A DNA stretch of 28,484 nucleotides from a virus. Position numbers and translations under genes: made by a program. The notes under the pieces are model-generated. The model made no database searches. It saw only the letters and a list, made by a program, of their open reading frames with translations, and had not been told where the DNA came from. Of the stretch, positions 10,950-19,626 are shown piece after piece (position 1 is the stretch's first letter; every line of letters starts with the position of its first letter). The stretch is from the IMG/VR virus record IMGVR_UViG_3300005747_000194, positions 1 to 28,484 of that record; one strand, 5' to 3'.

Positions 10950-12029
10950 TTATGATGATGGGTAAATTATTGTACTGTACCCAACTTTTGCTCCAGGTAT
11001 TCCTGCACTCAAAATTCCAGTGTATTGCCCATTGTTTGTAGATTCTGGATTAATAATAGTAGGATTTGTTACACCTGACAATCTTTTCCAATAATGGGTG
11101 CCATTTAAAGGCGCGGCTACAAGGTTACCGTTGGCATCGTATTCGTAAAATTGCTTTACAAATTTGCCATAACCCTCGTAAGCCATATAGTATTTTGTAG
11201 TGTCATTAGTAGCACTACCACTAGGGCCAGTAGTTACGTAATAATCATACAAAGTACCAGTTCCATCCCACAAAGACTCAATTGAAATATCCCAATTTTG
11301 ATTCATCAAAGCATCTGAACCATCTTGACACTGCCCGTCTGCTCCTTGGAATAAGCCGGTTAGTATCCTAAAGTCTCCAACGTCTTCAAAAGCGAAAAGG
11401 TAATTTTGCGAACCTCCTGTGCTACTAGTGGAATGAACCTGAAGAGTTCCTCTTCCGCCATAACCGCCGCCAGTTGCTTCATAAGCGCCATTAGCCCTCC
11501 ATCCAGTGCCTCCTGCTCCTGAATTGTAAGTTCCGCCGTAGCCTTGATTTGATGTGCTTCCGTTCATCACCCATCCATGCAACCCAGCTGAATCCACCCA
11601 ACCGTTTGGATCTTGATAATCCGCACGAGTTTGGAATCTAATAGGTAATGCGTGAGCAGTACCCTGAGGCCCTTTGTATGTAGTTATAAACACTACAATA
11701 GCACCCTTAGATTGTTGCTGAGAATTAAATTGTAGCGAACTTTCAAAATACGCGCTAACGTTTGGGTAATTAGTACACGTGTCTACGGACTGATCGGGGC
11801 TTGCCTGAGTTGGCGTTGTTATAGCCGGCATACCAATTGATGGAAGGTTTGCTGCTATATTAGCCTCCGCGGATGACGCGTAAAGCGCAAGTCCTTGCTC
11901 AGAAAATTGAGTATTTGTATATCCAACTAAAGGGCTGTCCGAAATTTCGTAAGGCACATTGCATGTTGGACAAGTGGAAGGACTCCCCAGTGATGGGGGA
12001 GATCCACTAAATTGTCTATAATTTGCCAT
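10950..12029 (-). CDS. Glycine-rich tail-associated protein with MANYRQ/CPxC N-terminal module; candidate adhesin
   Basis: A 359-residue protein. Residues 1-23 form a module (MANYRQ, then LGSP, then CPTC) shared with the next gene. The centre (about residues 160-205) is very rich in glycine, serine, tyrosine and asparagine (for example GYGGTYNSGAGGTGWRANG). The rest is beta-like and aromatic (FAFEDVGDFRILTGLFQGA, YYMAYEGYGKFVKQFYEY). No catalytic motif or signal peptide is seen. Gly-rich beta proteins at the end of a tail gene run often form fibre tips or receptor-binding parts, so this is a reasonable but unproven candidate. A GC-rich hairpin lies in codons 10-16. It begins 21 bases after the stop of the 80-residue gene. 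Confidence 0.8.
   Translation of the reverse strand: MANYRQFSGSPPSLGSPSTCPTCNVPYEISDSPLVGYTNTQFSEQGLALYASSAEANIAANLPSIGMPAITTPTQASPDQSVDTCTNYPNVSAYFESSLQFNSQQQSKGAIVVFITTYKGPQGTAHALPIRFQTRADYQDPNGWVDSAGLHGWVMNGSTSNQGYGGTYNSGAGGTGWRANGAYEATGGGYGGRGTLQVHSTSSTGGSQNYLFAFEDVGDFRILTGLFQGADGQCQDGSDALMNQNWDISIESLWDGTGTLYDYYVTTGPSGSATNDTTKYYMAYEGYGKFVKQFYEYDANGNLVAAPLNGTHYWKRLSGVTNPTIINPESTNNGQYTGILSAGIPGAKVGYSTIIYPSS
11961..12029 (-). repeat. MANYRQ...CPxC N-terminal module, copy 1
   Basis: Residues 1-23 of the 359-residue protein match residues 1-22 of the neighbouring 80-residue protein in the pattern MANYRQ-x2-G-...-LG-x-P-x2-CPxC. The first 18 coding bases of the two genes differ at one position by eye. 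The cysteine pair could bind metal or form a disulphide. Confidence 0.75.
11983..12001 (-). other. GC-rich hairpin inside the start of the 359-residue gene
   Basis: The arms CTCCCC (11983-11988) and GGGGAG (11996-12001) flank a 7-base loop. The stem falls about 28 bases after the ATG, in otherwise AT-rich DNA. It could slow early translation or simply reflect Pro/Gly codons. Confidence 0.45.
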
Positions 12030-12050: not shown

Positions 12051-12293
12051 TTATACGTCGTCGCTGTAGAACCCAGCAGCCGCAGCGGTAGTTAACGCAT
12101 TGTCTTGATACAATGTAGTCGCGTTAGCGAAAGTAGTTCCAGTTGGAACATAGACCGTTACTGTACTAGGAGTTCCACAACATAGACCATCTGCGTCAGT
12201 AGCGTCATACTTTAAAGATAAAGATACTGAACATGATGGACAAGCTGCTGGAGCACCCAATGTGTTCCCTGTTTGTTGTCTGTAATTTGCCAT
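12051..12293 (-). CDS. Short chimeric tail-module protein, 80 residues
   Basis: The protein consists almost entirely of two borrowed modules. Residues 1-22 carry the MANYRQ...CPSC module seen in the next gene. Residues 36-80 carry a C-terminal module beginning with adjacent cysteines (LCCG) and ending in LYQDNALTTAAAAGFYSD, which resembles the last 40 residues of the upstream 495-residue protein. It has four cysteines in total (CPSC and CC). It may be a small linker or cap joining tail parts; this is inference. The start is preceded by an A-rich tract (AAAAATTAAAAA) and, 13 bases upstream, by TAACATTT, a short string also found upstream of two other genes. No known family is recognised. Confidence 0.75.
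   Translation of the reverse strand: MANYRQQTGNTLGAPAACPSCSVSLSLKYDATDADGLCCGTPSTVTVYVPTGTTFANATTLYQDNALTTAAAAGFYSDDV
12054..12188 (-). repeat. CC...FYSD C-terminal module, copy 1
   Basis: Residues 36-80 of the 80-residue protein align with the last 40 residues of the 495-residue protein: an adjacent Cys-Cys, a beta-like stretch, then (A/T)T-x-(L/I)Y-x-D and a G(F/Y)YS(D/E) end. Confidence 0.65.
12228..12293 (-). repeat. MANYRQ...CPxC N-terminal module, copy 2
   Basis: Residues 1-22 of the 80-residue protein, pairing with the copy at 11961-12029. Both begin MANYRQ and end in CPxC. Confidence 0.75.
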
Positions 12294-13811: not shown

Positions 13812-15080
13812 TTATGTAATTTGATTTTGTCCGCCACAATATGGCGCTATATTATACCCCGCTGCAATAAGAGCATTAACTACAATTTCGGTGTAGTAAC
13901 CATTAGTGGTGTTACCGTCGTCAATTAAATCAAAGCCATATCCGTCGGTACCAACTGGGTTGCCAATTGAAATTTGGCTTGTATAATTTGTTAAATCGTT
14001 GTTTTCTAATTGAAATCTAGATCCTGTAGTTGCGTTTAAAGCATCAAATATTGTCTGCATCGGCCCTAAGCTGTCTCCTGAATTGTTTTCCACGCAAAAA
14101 TATATACCTCTATAGTTGCCACTAAAACTATCAATGTTGCTCTTCAGGCCTGTTAATCTAATCATAGAAGTAGCATTAGGAACGCTTGCACTAGGGGTGT
14201 AGGATTGGTAAGTTACACCTGCGTTAGAGATCTCATCGTTAAATACAAGCATATTAACGGTGTCTGCGTTTGGAAAATAACTATCCCCAAATCCATTACT
14301 TAAATTATTTAACCAGAAAAAAGGATATTCTGCGCCGTTGCTTATTATAAAAACTTTATTAGTATATTCATCTGATCCATTCGTGCTAGTATCCGTGTTG
14401 CCTTGTGCCTCAGTAGCACCTGTTGCGTAAAAGTCTTGTAAATAGGATTTTAAACATGTACAATCATTGTAAGGATCCGATACGCCTGTACCTACTAAAT
14501 CCCTAGCTAACCGTGGTTCAGTGGAACCCATAGAGCCAGAGCTATCAAATATAATTTTAAAATATGTATCAATAGTAGGGACTAGTCCGCCTATCGTTAT
14601 TACTTGGTCATCATAAAGTATAGGATCACCACCATCTGTTACTCTTATTGTAAATTCAAAATTTCCTTCTCTCACTCCTTGCCCATCATCCGCTAAGGAT
14701 GCAGTACCTGTAAATCCTTCGCCAGTAGTTGTTAAATTTATCCACGAGGGCGCGTTTATAAGTGACCAAGATAATTCATCTTGCGTATGGTCAACATCAG
14801 TTGCCGTTATTGGAGTATAACTATAAGGATCCCCAACACTATAAGTGGAGCTCGGAGGGTTTGAGGTTATATTGGGGCCATCATTTACACCTTCTACACG
14901 CACTGTTACTGTTGCTTCAGGGCTATCAAAATACCCATTGTTTACTGTATATTTAAAATAACCTGCATCTCCAAAGAAATTTAAACTAGGTATAAATACA
15001 ACTTGGCCAGTGTTTACATTAAATGATGCTATCTGCCCTCCCGTAGTTGCGTCTTCTGTTAGTTTATATGTTAATGCCAT
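13812..15080 (-). CDS. Phage adhesion-type protein with cadherin-like domains and a VWA domain (MIDAS)
   Basis: A 422-residue protein in three parts. Residues 1-63 are the second half of a tandem cadherin/Big_9-type repeat (VVFIPSLNFFGDAG, YFKYTVNNGYFDSPEATVTV). Residues about 66-165 look like a dystroglycan-type cadherin or He_PIG domain (SVGDPYSYTPITATDVD, then PSWINL and TIRVTDGGDP). Residues about 170-370 read as a von Willebrand factor A domain: IIFDSSGSMG at 176-185 gives a MIDAS DxSxS (D179, S181, S183), with later strands NKVFIISNG and TVNMLVFND. VWA domains bind ligands through a metal ion, so a host-surface adhesion role is plausible. The start lies four bases after the TAA of the nozzle-like gene, whose C-terminus holds the missing first half of domain one. 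The C-terminal 50 residues contain PYCGG. Confidence 0.85.
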   Translation of the reverse strand: MALTYKLTEDATTGGQIASFNVNTGQVVFIPSLNFFGDAGYFKYTVNNGYFDSPEATVTVRVEGVNDGPNITSNPPSSTYSVGDPYSYTPITATDVDHTQDELSWSLINAPSWINLTTTGEGFTGTASLADDGQGVREGNFEFTIRVTDGGDPILYDDQVITIGGLVPTIDTYFKIIFDSSGSMGSTEPRLARDLVGTGVSDPYNDCTCLKSYLQDFYATGATEAQGNTDTSTNGSDEYTNKVFIISNGAEYPFFWLNNLSNGFGDSYFPNADTVNMLVFNDEISNAGVTYQSYTPSASVPNATSMIRLTGLKSNIDSFSGNYRGIYFCVENNSGDSLGPMQTIFDALNATTGSRFQLENNDLTNYTSQISIGNPVGTDGYGFDLIDDGNTTNGYYTEIVVNALIAAGYNIAPYCGGQNQIT

Positions 15081-15180
15081 TGTATTAAGAATTAGGATCT
15101 AATGCTGATAGCTGCAATATTGCACACCCTTGATCGCAATCTTCCAAGACAGTGTAAGTCATATTGTTTGCTGTTGGTGG
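14892..15180 (-). other. Cadherin/Big_9-type repeat split across two genes
   Basis: The last 31 residues of the upstream protein (PPTANNMTYTVLED...LSALDPNS) and the first 63 of the next (MALTYKLTEDATTGG...EATVTVRV) together give one complete repeat of the tandem cadherin/Big_9 pattern. The halves are separated by TAA TACA ATG and sit in frames differing by +1. Confidence 0.7.
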
Positions 15181-18100
15181 TAATATGTAAGATGCACAAT
15201 CCGGATTTGCAAATACTCTTATATTATATGCGCTAATGGCTGGTCCTTCAATAATAGATGCCCGCCCGATACCTTGCATTGAGAATTCTTTTGAATCTAA
15301 ATTATTATCAGTATTAGTATTAAAAAATGTAGCCTCACCTTTTATATATTGAAACCATTTGTTTTCTTTATCTAGGAACTGCTTAACATAACCCTCTTGA
15401 AGATCAGTCGTTATATACTCAGTATACCAGCCTTCGTTATTTAAAGTTTCGCTTGTTAAATTCTGCAGTTGTAAAGCCTCGACTTGCGCCAATGTTAAAC
15501 CTTCGTGTACGCCATTTCCATATAAATATTCACGAGATTTTGTACCGGAATAATTTAATGTTTTATATTTTTTAACCGAATTAGGTTGTTCATTCATTAA
15601 AAATGTTACAGAACTATCGTATTGAATACCATAAAAGTTATTTCTAACAGCATCTTCTGTTCTGTGTTCCCACATCAATCCATTCTCAAAAGTATAGTAC
15701 CTGTCGTTTAAACTTATTCCACCCTCTTGACTAAATGTTTTTCTACTTTCCCATGCGTTTATAGACTCCTTAAAGCTTATTACAGTATTTGTTGTTGGAA
15801 TATCTACCCACTCCTTTCCATTGCCAGTTTCTGAATATGTTTTTGTAGTAAGTTTATCTTGCCATTCTTGCGATAAGTTATTTAAGCACAAGTTATAGCC
15901 ACCGCGATCATCATCGAAAGATCCCCATGTTATCGTCGACTTCTTTAAGTTATCCGCAAAGAAATCACCCATACCATATCTTGATATTTGTTCAATTCCA
16001 TCTCCAGATAATCTTAAAACCACACCTCTGTTTTTATCTGTAAAGTAAGCTCTAAAACCATAGCTAGCAAAACTTTCAGGGTGATTACTTATACCAAACT
16101 CACCTATATAAGGTGTCGCTTGTCCAAGTACCGCATTATTTGATGTAACATTAGCATTGCCGTCAGCATTAAATAACGCATCTTTATTGGTAAGAATTCT
16201 TAAACACTTATCTTCGCACAAAGTAACTAAGTTAGTATCTCTAGTGTGCAATTTTTGTATAGACCCATATACTGGATTTAAATCTTTTGTTATAGCTTCC
16301 GCTTGTATAAATTGATTTAAGTTATTTACTCCAGATATAGAATTAAATATTTGTGAAAATATTAGTCCATTTGATCTACGTTCTTTGCCGTAAGGTTCTT
16401 TTAGTGGTGCAGATGCAATAGCACCATTATCTATAGTGACAGCGTTAAAGTCGTCTCTAATTCTATCTGACTCCACACCATTCCCAAATGAATAGCAATT
16501 ATGCCAGTCCAAAGCATGGCTATCACCATATGTAGACATTGGGTAGTACGGAGAAGCAGAATAATATATTTCTAATTCTGTTGCTTCTTTTGGCTCAGTT
16601 TCAAAAATACCAGGATTGTCAGAAGTAAATCCTTCATCTTCAAAGTACGGTTTTAAAAATTCTATTTCAGGGGCGTCGGGATTATTCATACTCCTATTTA
16701 TTTTAGGAAAAACCCACCCCGCTGGCCCTTGAAACAAACCGGTACCGTTTGCTGTTTTGTCGAGTGGCTCAACATTTAAGAACCATCTTGTTCTTTTGTT
16801 TGAACCTTTATTAAATTTATTTCTTCTTTTATTACCTTGGTAATTACGAACTCTTGATTGTTCTTCTGTTTTTGTAATTTTATATACGACTTGATCAGGA
16901 TCTTCTTTAAACCTAAATAACCCGCCTACAGACATAAGAGTATCTACAGCATCTCTGTATTGTCGGTATCTGCTTCGCCCTACTCCAAAGTCTGGCCCTT
17001 TAGGCCATATACCTGTAAAACCTATTGAAATAACGTTGCCTCCAACGGTAAAAGCAGGGGCAGCGCCGCCTCTGTCTGTATCACCACCATCATCTATAAA
17101 AAATCCAGATCTTCCATAATCAGCACCTCCCCAGCCGCCAGGCTGTGAATCGTTAATTATATAGCTCCGGTACATTTTGTGATTTATATAACCTAAATTT
17201 ACAGATGTTTTTACAGCGTAGTTATCAATATTTGCCGATGCCAATATATATTCCTCCAGCACCGCGTCTTTGTATAGTTTAATAAAAAATCTACCTTCAA
17301 ACTCAGGTTTATCCTCAAAAGCCTCTGACGCTAATTCTAGTAACAAACCACCTATTAAGTCGTCGTTTTCATCTAAGACAAAGCCCATGTCTTCCCCGAA
17401 CTTTGTGTCAATAGTTATACGATAAAATCCATCTTCAGGTATAGTAATACTTGATACTTCGTACCAATCACTTCTATTACTTGCTCCCAGTATTCGTACA
17501 AGTCGCTGTCTTTGTGTAGTGTCAAGAGCAGATGCTAATTCACTTGCTTTAAATTCAGCCTCGTCTACATCAATCCAGGTTCTGTCCGGCTGGGGTATAC
17601 CTGTTGATTTAAATAAATTATTCCCAGGTCCAGCCTCTAGTGTACCAAAACTCTTTATTACTCTACGTAAAAATAAAGGCGCTTCGTTTGATATTGCAAT
17701 TACTTTATATTTTGCACTAAAAGGAACAAACTCATCTGATTCGTGTCTTTTTTTAAGTTCTAAAAACGTTTCATCATCTACTTTGTTTCTTTCTGATGAA
17801 GGAAAACTAATCCAGACGTTACCATCTTCAGCATCGTACCAACGGTCCATTGCTAAGTTATAATACTGCTGGGAATTTTCTTTTATATAATATTTAAAAC
17901 TTTCAAAACCCTCTGGTTTATTACCGTCTGTTTGCACGGTTATTTTGTTATATTGATCTGCCTCTTCTTTACCTAAAGTAACAGCTGCAGATTCCGAAGT
18001 AAATACAGGGGTTTGCCTACCGTATTTATCAGCGAATACAACTCCTATCTGATATGTTCTTTGTGTTTTTAAAGACTGATACGGTTGCTTAGGTACGCTT

Positions 18101-19626
18101 TCGCCTAACTCACTTAAAGTGTGATCTCCGTTTTCATCTAAATCCCAATCAGTATAATGCGCTATTGTTTGAGTTAAAGTTGGTGAAACAATCTGATTTA
18201 AGTTATTTTTTAAATCAAAATTTTGTTCATAATTAGCATATACTATTCTGTTGCCTGTTATTTCCTGCGCTTTAGCGGTCAGGGGAACGTTGTCATACGG
18301 CCTTAATATTTGATTAGCCGGAAGCAAAGATGATATAATTTCGGATTCTATATTAAATTCGTTAGCAGTCCAAATATCATCATCCTTTTTAAATGTATCT
18401 ACTACATATATTGAACTGCTATTGCTTTCTTTGTATAGAAGATCAACCTCGACAACATCTAAGGGTGTAGTAGACGGGACAAAGTCTTGTATGATACATT
18501 GCCTTAATGTATTGACCATACCTAAATTGTAACCCTTTTTTGTGTTATACTCAAATTCCGATGGTAAGAAAGCTACCTCCGTAAAAGGTGAAAATGTAGA
18601 ATAATAACCATCTTTATATTTATACCTGTATGCAAATCTAGGGAACTTAAATTCAAAAAATGGCTTTTCGTCTATTTTAACGTCCCAATCTATATCTACA
18701 TCCTGTACACTTTCGTTTACAGCCAATACTTTAACCAAAGCCCCTGTTTGGGATGATCCCGCTGTGACACTTAATACCTCAACTCTCGCTTCATATTCAT
18801 CAACAAAGTTAGCATCATCGGGGGCTGACCCCGTCATTACTAAGACGTCTCCTGTTCTATAAAACGGATAAGGAGAACTTGCCCAAGATAAATTAAATTC
18901 CGTACCTATAGGTGCCGCTATCCTTTCTGCGGCGTCGTCTGGGTCTACTATTACAAAATTTTGTACACACGTAGTGCTAACAATTGCCGGCTCCCCGTTG
19001 TCATCTAATATTCTAGTATTGGATAAATCTAATGTAGGTGGCGTTAGTGGTGACTTCTTTATTACTGTTATATCAGCCTCTTCAAAATCTCTACCATTAA
19101 ACACAGTGTGAGTTAAAAAGTTTGTGCTGCTTTCTTTAAAATCTTTTATATTTACTACCTTAGGTTCTGTTTGGCCGTCTGTAAAAAACATCAAACCTTC
19201 TATAATGTTTATACCAGTAATTAAATAATCTTCAGAAAAATTTAATATGTTTTTCGTATCAACAATAACAGGCGTAACCACGTCTAGGGTTTGATCATAT
19301 TCTGCAATAGCGCTTATACCGGCAGAACTTAAAAACCAATATATTTTTTCGGTTGTTGAATCAATTATTTCTCCTATTTTTTTAGGAGTGCTCATTGAAT
19401 CAATGTATCCACCCACCCATAAAGTATACTCCCCTGTATCAGGGTTAAAAGACCTGTATGGTTTATTTGAATTACCCACAATGTTTTGCAGCGATCCAAC
19501 ATTACCTGTATCCGATGTAGATATTTCTAAGTTTAGAGCATCTCTATACTCGCCATTTGGAACTAAGCGCTCATCAAGGTCTTTATTCATTTTGCCCTTG
19601 GTGAACGTACGGATTAATTCTGGCAT
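15085..19626 (-). CDS. Large tail nozzle/stabilisation-like structural protein, 1513 residues
   Basis: The N-terminus carries MNKDLDERLVPNGEYRDALN (residues 13-32) followed by DTGNVGSLQNIVGN, a signature I recall from large structural proteins of marine phages. It resembles the 'NKDLHP...ALN' start of crAss-like tail stabilisation proteins. The body is beta-rich with repeated Gly/Asp turns, in keeping with a propeller-like nozzle. Conserved-looking parts include WISFPSSERNKVDDETFLEL and, near residues 1174-1224, ESFASYGFRAYFTDKNRGVV and ISRYGMGDFF. The final 31 residues begin a cadherin-like repeat that stops at TAA and resumes in the next gene. It follows two connector-type genes, the usual place of a nozzle protein. 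It starts three bases after the preceding stop. The structural role is likely; the nozzle assignment is inferred. Confidence 0.8.
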   Translation of the reverse strand: MPELIRTFTKGKMNKDLDERLVPNGEYRDALNLEISTSDTGNVGSLQNIVGNSNKPYRSFNPDTGEYTLWVGGYIDSMSTPKKIGEIIDSTTEKIYWFLSSAGISAIAEYDQTLDVVTPVIVDTKNILNFSEDYLITGINIIEGLMFFTDGQTEPKVVNIKDFKESSTNFLTHTVFNGRDFEEADITVIKKSPLTPPTLDLSNTRILDDNGEPAIVSTTCVQNFVIVDPDDAAERIAAPIGTEFNLSWASSPYPFYRTGDVLVMTGSAPDDANFVDEYEARVEVLSVTAGSSQTGALVKVLAVNESVQDVDIDWDVKIDEKPFFEFKFPRFAYRYKYKDGYYSTFSPFTEVAFLPSEFEYNTKKGYNLGMVNTLRQCIIQDFVPSTTPLDVVEVDLLYKESNSSSIYVVDTFKKDDDIWTANEFNIESEIISSLLPANQILRPYDNVPLTAKAQEITGNRIVYANYEQNFDLKNNLNQIVSPTLTQTIAHYTDWDLDENGDHTLSELGESVPKQPYQSLKTQRTYQIGVVFADKYGRQTPVFTSESAAVTLGKEEADQYNKITVQTDGNKPEGFESFKYYIKENSQQYYNLAMDRWYDAEDGNVWISFPSSERNKVDDETFLELKKRHESDEFVPFSAKYKVIAISNEAPLFLRRVIKSFGTLEAGPGNNLFKSTGIPQPDRTWIDVDEAEFKASELASALDTTQRQRLVRILGASNRSDWYEVSSITIPEDGFYRITIDTKFGEDMGFVLDENDDLIGGLLLELASEAFEDKPEFEGRFFIKLYKDAVLEEYILASANIDNYAVKTSVNLGYINHKMYRSYIINDSQPGGWGGADYGRSGFFIDDGGDTDRGGAAPAFTVGGNVISIGFTGIWPKGPDFGVGRSRYRQYRDAVDTLMSVGGLFRFKEDPDQVVYKITKTEEQSRVRNYQGNKRRNKFNKGSNKRTRWFLNVEPLDKTANGTGLFQGPAGWVFPKINRSMNNPDAPEIEFLKPYFEDEGFTSDNPGIFETEPKEATELEIYYSASPYYPMSTYGDSHALDWHNCYSFGNGVESDRIRDDFNAVTIDNGAIASAPLKEPYGKERRSNGLIFSQIFNSISGVNNLNQFIQAEAITKDLNPVYGSIQKLHTRDTNLVTLCEDKCLRILTNKDALFNADGNANVTSNNAVLGQATPYIGEFGISNHPESFASYGFRAYFTDKNRGVVLRLSGDGIEQISRYGMGDFFADNLKKSTITWGSFDDDRGGYNLCLNNLSQEWQDKLTTKTYSETGNGKEWVDIPTTNTVISFKESINAWESRKTFSQEGGISLNDRYYTFENGLMWEHRTEDAVRNNFYGIQYDSSVTFLMNEQPNSVKKYKTLNYSGTKSREYLYGNGVHEGLTLAQVEALQLQNLTSETLNNEGWYTEYITTDLQEGYVKQFLDKENKWFQYIKGEATFFNTNTDNNLDSKEFSMQGIGRASIIEGPAISAYNIRVFANPDCASYILPPTANNMTYTVLEDCDQGCAILQLSALDPNS

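Follow-up and report, generated by a model that had tools for sequence, protein, structure and literature searches.

A cadherin-like repeat divided between the muzzle gene and a VWA-like tail-tip gene, a candidate docking site for an exchangeable adhesin in a crAss-like phage

The stretch of DNA analysed here, referred to as the window, covers positions 1 to 28,484 of the IMG/VR virus record IMGVR_UViG_3300005747_000194 (28,484 bases) and, judged from sequence, appears to belong to a crAss-like bacterial virus; genes elsewhere in the window match the terminase, portal and virion proteins of crAss-like phages. Two adjacent genes on the minus strand are the subject of this work (Table 1). The upstream one is assigned to the crassvirus muzzle family on the basis of its profile matches (crAss_MUZ at 2e-10 and crAss_MUZ_C at 3e-7 in Pfam, phrog_14478 at 4e-132 in PHROG) and its tail-gene context. 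In phi-crAss001 the muzzle (gp44) has been described as a hexameric tail-tip protein complex (PMC10172136). The second gene follows it immediately, a position which supports the location in a phage tail region proposed by the first-pass annotation, and gaps of 1-4 nt between genes are common throughout the window.

Table 1. Features of the muzzle and VWA genes in the window.
Feature	Position	Strand	Basis
Muzzle protein gene, 1513 aa, predicted docking partner of the VWA module	15085..19626	-	crAss_MUZ, crAss_MUZ_C, phrog_14478
N-part of split cadherin-like repeat, muzzle residues 1481-1513, ILPPTANNMTYTVLEDCDQGCAILQLSALDPNS	15088..15186	-	predicted strands A, B; conserved ED, two Cys
TAA stop of muzzle ORF, within B-C loop of repeat	15085..15087	-	sequence
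ATG of VWA gene, 4 nt past muzzle stop, +1 frame	15078..15080	-	sequence
VWA-bearing tail-tip gene, 422 aa, directly after muzzle gene	13812..15080	-	ORF
C-part of split cadherin-like repeat, residues 1-67, VND linker at end	14880..15080	-	predicted strands C to G
Second cadherin/Ig-like repeat, residues 68-165	14586..14879	-	profile, AF2, structural comparison
VWA-like domain, residues 166-422	13815..14585	-	conservation, AF2, structural comparison, HHalign
MIDAS DxSxS block, D179-S180-S181-G182-S183	14532..14546	-	sequence, motif scan, alignment
Candidate MIDAS Thr223	14412..14414	-	invariant in 6/6 sequences
Candidate second MIDAS Asp282	14235..14237	-	predicted strand end; invariant in 6/6 sequences

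The segment IIFDSSGSMG, which had been read as a DxSxS metal-binding site at D179, S181 and S183, is indeed present at residues ~175-184 of the 422-aa ORF (minus-strand codons 14546-14544, 14540-14538 and 14534-14532, respectively). When all open frames of at least 150 aa at 81 loci and in the window were scanned for hydrophobic(3)-D-x-S-[GSA]-S, matches were confined to the window protein, together with its copy in L001, and the relative in L005, so that the motif is not a product of chance. The site also withstood comparison with its homologues, D179 and S183 being invariant across six sequences and S181 being serine in five of them and threonine in L004. The threonine and second aspartate still to be located in a complete MIDAS have candidates in T223 and D282, whose roles were assigned by position and which are likewise invariant in all six. 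The original span of the domain, 13971-14573 or residues 170-370, proved too short, since conservation runs to residue ~415 and the domain is better drawn as in Table 1. The VWA genes at L004:14626-16269 and L005:14626-16284 carry an extra C-terminal domain of ~120 residues, which is lacking in the window protein.

It is probable that the C-terminal ~250 residues of this protein constitute a VWA-like domain, a resemblance which the conserved MIDAS residues and fold predictions of low to moderate confidence weakly support. No VWA profile in Pfam, NCBIfam, PHROG or the PDB sequence profiles matched the 422-aa protein, and none was found in Pfam and NCBIfam scans of six family members, while PF00092 and PF13519 were absent from four related viral records yet matched in control genomes; for this reason the domain is named VWA-like and is not filed as a member of the Pfam VWA family. 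HHalign against 31 bacterial VWA domains gave a score of 33.8 (the best of 40 column shuffles reached 18.5), with an alignment restricted to the DSSGSM block. The VWA assignment of the first-pass annotation is partly supported, with a conserved MIDAS but no profile match and no alignment beyond that block. Its further claim of strands and helices in VWA order is in agreement with the AF2 model of a joined chain, in which the muzzle tail and the VWA ORF were artificially fused with the TAAT word read as one residue (model residue = ORF residue + 83). In this model an alternating beta-alpha domain with VWA-like strand and helix order is predicted at pLDDT ~50-85, D179 following strand 255-261 and D282 following strand 357-364 (model numbering). 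On the other hand, the domain folded alone gave a poor model (mean pLDDT 42), and the Foldseek list derived from it was consequently excluded as evidence. Structural comparison of the VWA-like domain (VIA) returned only Z scores of 6.6 or less, in which VWA/I-type matches (integrin beta-8, TFIIH p34, the alpha-X I domain and vWF A3) were mixed with SGNH esterases. Searches by tblastn found no match to the window protein in 50,697 phage records, nor, at E 5, to its counterparts in L083 and L094, and no cellular relative was found in a first scan of genome contigs.

At the boundary between the two genes the muzzle ends in ...MTYTVLEDCDQGCAILQLSALDPNS, after which come its TAA stop, a TACA spacer and ATG GCA TTA ACA TAT, the start of a VWA ORF that reads MALTYKLTEDATTGG...VEGVNDGPN. 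Compared as sequences, the end of the muzzle and the beginning of the VWA ORF are together one cadherin-like repeat. The cadherin-like domains that had been described as joined to the VWA domain are accordingly confirmed as repeats, but the first of them lies only partly in the VWA ORF, with its N-part at the muzzle end; the earlier architecture overlooked this division across two genes as well as the exchange of the module between phage lineages. AF2 modelling of the joined chain gives the split repeat mostly in blocks of pLDDT ~80-96, with strands 57-62 and 71-73 contributed by the muzzle and five by the VWA ORF. Structural comparison pairs model residues 46-249 with tandem cadherin repeats (best Z 11.8 over 191 residues, rmsd 6.8), a match also obtained with Foldseek, and model and match together describe a seven-strand cadherin-like beta-sandwich. 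As the prediction was made on a fused chain, it shows that the two parts are compatible within one chain and has no bearing on their association as separate chains. In cadherins, calcium is bound by motifs that include a Glu in the first repeat, a DxND-like linker and a DxD. The residues conserved in the split group, namely ED in the muzzle part, and VNDxP and DxD in the part encoded by the VWA gene, fit these calcium-binding positions at the level of sequence.

Four lineages (the window, L082, L004/L005 and L083), the only ones in which this state is known, have their split in one and the same loop, and all sequences come from metagenomes. From TAA to ATG the gap is 4 nt in the window, 1 nt in L082 (TAA-T-ATG), 2 nt in L004/L005 (TAA-TT-ATG) and 3 nt in L083 (TAA-GAT-ATG), so that the VWA ORF lies in frame +1 relative to the muzzle in the window and L082, -1/+2 in L004/L005 and in the same frame in L083. 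At all split junctions an ATG with an M[AP]L start occupies one shared alignment position, and no conserved slippery run was seen by inspection in the four lineages. Sequencing or assembly error was rejected as an origin of the junction, four different junction sequences being present in independent contigs, and so was stop reassignment, as the stop is TAA everywhere while the frames differ. In the fused muzzles of L002, L030, L006-L012 and L014 a single ORF holds the repeat unbroken (TDPASLPLTFELVSDNT in L030), and in L002 and L030 the repeat is followed by a C-terminal domain other than the VWA-like one. In L094 it is the gene behind the muzzle that carries an intact repeat and, after it, a VWA-like domain, and the muzzle itself has no half-repeat. 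Throughout the fused muzzles listed above, the place of the VWA-like domain is held by a conserved domain with the pattern LLxLxF...CxRGTY...GN.

The muzzle tree places the L002 and L030 muzzles closest to that of the window (100/100), but at residue ~1481, ahead of the stop codon, the resemblance of the window switches from L002/L030 to L082. Counted as L002-only:L082-only, the discordant sites of the muzzle body stand at 445:71 and those of the linker at 6:1; the N-part has 1:11 and the C-part 2:28 (Fisher test, muzzle body versus N-part, p = 7e-9). This places a recombination breakpoint just before the half-repeat, so that the half encoded by the muzzle gene is transferred along with the VWA gene. 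Purifying constraint acts on the N-part: over its 33 codons the window-L082 pN/pS is 0.15, a rough value because synonymous sites are close to saturation. The six contigs recovered from IMG/VR with the N-part alone are those that the VWA gene had recovered in its first search, and no N-part without a VWA gene was found in IMG/VR. On the muzzle tree the lineages with the split-VWA state do not form one clade, a distribution consistent with exchange between lineages. Part of the co-transfer of N-part and VWA gene may be due to a recombination site lying upstream by chance.

These observations favour, with a confidence slightly above even, the view that the VWA gene product is an exchangeable adhesin subunit docked non-covalently at the tail tip of a crAss-like phage. 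The muzzle and VWA proteins would each be translated from its own reading frame, the two frames being adjacent and possibly coupled, after which the N-part of the muzzle and the C-part of the VWA gene product would fold into one cadherin-type repeat on the virion. Through the shared repeat the VWA subunit would be held on the muzzle with no peptide bond between them, and would stay exchangeable by a single crossover. Calcium bound where the two repeats meet might further stiffen the arm, at whose tip the VWA domain might bind a ligand on the host surface through its MIDAS metal. By analogy with known domains, metal-dependent host binding by the VWA-like domain is plausible in view of the domain type, its position at the tail tip and its replacement by another domain in sister phages. 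The fuller proposal, in which one cadherin-type domain divided between two proteins docks the exchangeable adhesin and the calcium site and distal MIDAS make a doubly metal-dependent arm, stands at about even chances.

Other origins of the split have to be weighed against separate, docked proteins. Synthesis of a single muzzle-cadherin-VWA protein, through programmed frameshifting or stop readthrough that fuses both ORFs, would have a model in the sister phages with the repeat inside one fused ORF and a precedent in the frameshifted FN3 extension of SPP1 gp17.1 (PMC8718954). Yet frames of +1, +1, -1/+2 and 0 are distributed across the lineages, and since all three relative frames occur no shared frameshift or readthrough mechanism can account for the split, one recoding event being unable to serve them all. 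Neither the constant relative frame nor the conserved slippery site of a programmed frameshift is found in the four lineages, the aligned ATG is present in each, and the gaps of 1-4 nt are so usual between genes of the window that the boundary looks ordinary, merely placed inside a domain. A +1 programmed frameshift, which had been the initial suspicion, was ruled out as the common mechanism by L004/L005 and L083, and recoding as a whole is considered improbable. An unlikely explanation is also offered by neutral gene fission, whereby the half-repeat of the muzzle is a remnant and the VWA protein acts alone or attaches elsewhere; the L094 arrangement, with the cassette on another gene beside a muzzle devoid of the half-repeat, would agree with it, but the N-part is constrained, co-transferred with the VWA gene and never met without it in IMG/VR.

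The function and fold of the VWA-like domain are open to alternatives as well. In an archaeal virus, tail assembly has been reported to need a MoxR-VWA system (PMC7824862), and the phage VWAs described in the literature surveyed are of the MoxR-chaperone, cobaltochelatase (CobT) or Ter type, in line with a role as tail-assembly chaperone or structural element instead of host binding. Here, however, the domain is tied to tail-tip cadherin repeats, is missing from close relatives and is replaced there by another domain, a linkage and swapping that suit an adhesin better than an assembly factor, so that the assembly role is given little credence. Similarly doubtful is an assignment of the alpha/beta domain to another Rossmann-like fold, such as an SGNH/GDSL hydrolase. 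Such a fold would explain the SGNH esterases found beside VWA/I domains among the structural matches, and the invariant D-S pair, but the six relatives share no invariant His, which leaves the SGNH catalytic triad unconserved, and the DSSGSM block aligns with bacterial VWAs.

Compared with VWA and integrin I domains (PF00092, PF13519), the window domain shares the DSSGSM block, the candidate Thr and second Asp, the predicted beta-alpha alternation and the placement of both Asp at strand ends, but it lacks a profile match, is longer (~250 aa, with insertions) and resides on a phage tail-tip protein. In the donor-strand complementation of chaperone-usher pili, an Ig-like fold is completed by strands from another polypeptide; the split repeat would resemble it in completing such a fold across polypeptides and differs in that two strands come from the C-terminus of the neighbouring gene, with no chaperone or usher. 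The muzzle of the window is a member of the crassvirus muzzle family of gp44 (PMC10172136) by both Pfam and PHROG, from which it departs in ending with part of a cadherin-type repeat that the next gene completes. The nearest architectural precedent, by analogy, is the frameshifted Ig-like/FN3 tail decoration (SPP1 gp17.1 long form, PMC8718954), also an optional beta-sandwich extension beyond the stop of a main ORF; here, in contrast, the relative frame is not conserved, the domain itself is cut and the second part has its own ATG.

Modular tail-tip adhesins are of a known kind and the split docking domain is the newest part of this proposal. A literature search of partial coverage revealed no matching report of VWA/MIDAS domains in phage receptor binding or of cadherin in Crassvirales, nor, within the same partial coverage, of two tail genes that together encode one domain or of split or donor-strand domains in phage tails. 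If correct, the proposal would provide a simple route to a modular tail-tip adhesin, as a gene boundary inside the docking domain allows a single crossover to swap the docking half together with the binding head. It would also represent a phage tail protein with a MIDAS-type domain, making metal-dependent adsorption directly testable in the abundant crAss-like phages.

Further variation was observed at and downstream of muzzle ends. The muzzles of L024, L029, L031, L033, L035-L038, L040, L069 and L075, which lack the cadherin part, terminate with xLTI.ENND or a similar sequence; TAA(N)ATGGC comes next, and the adjoining gene opens with MALxNC. This arrangement may represent a second conserved muzzle/adhesin boundary. 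Much longer muzzle tails are present in L041, L043, L045, L046 and L049. Within the window, the minus-strand genes at 12051-12293 and 10950-12029 both encode proteins that start with MANYRQ.. and contain a CxxC motif, and proteins encoded downstream of the muzzle in L011, L012, L019, L072, L078 and L081 begin in a similar way, which suggests a common N-terminal tag with variable C-termini.
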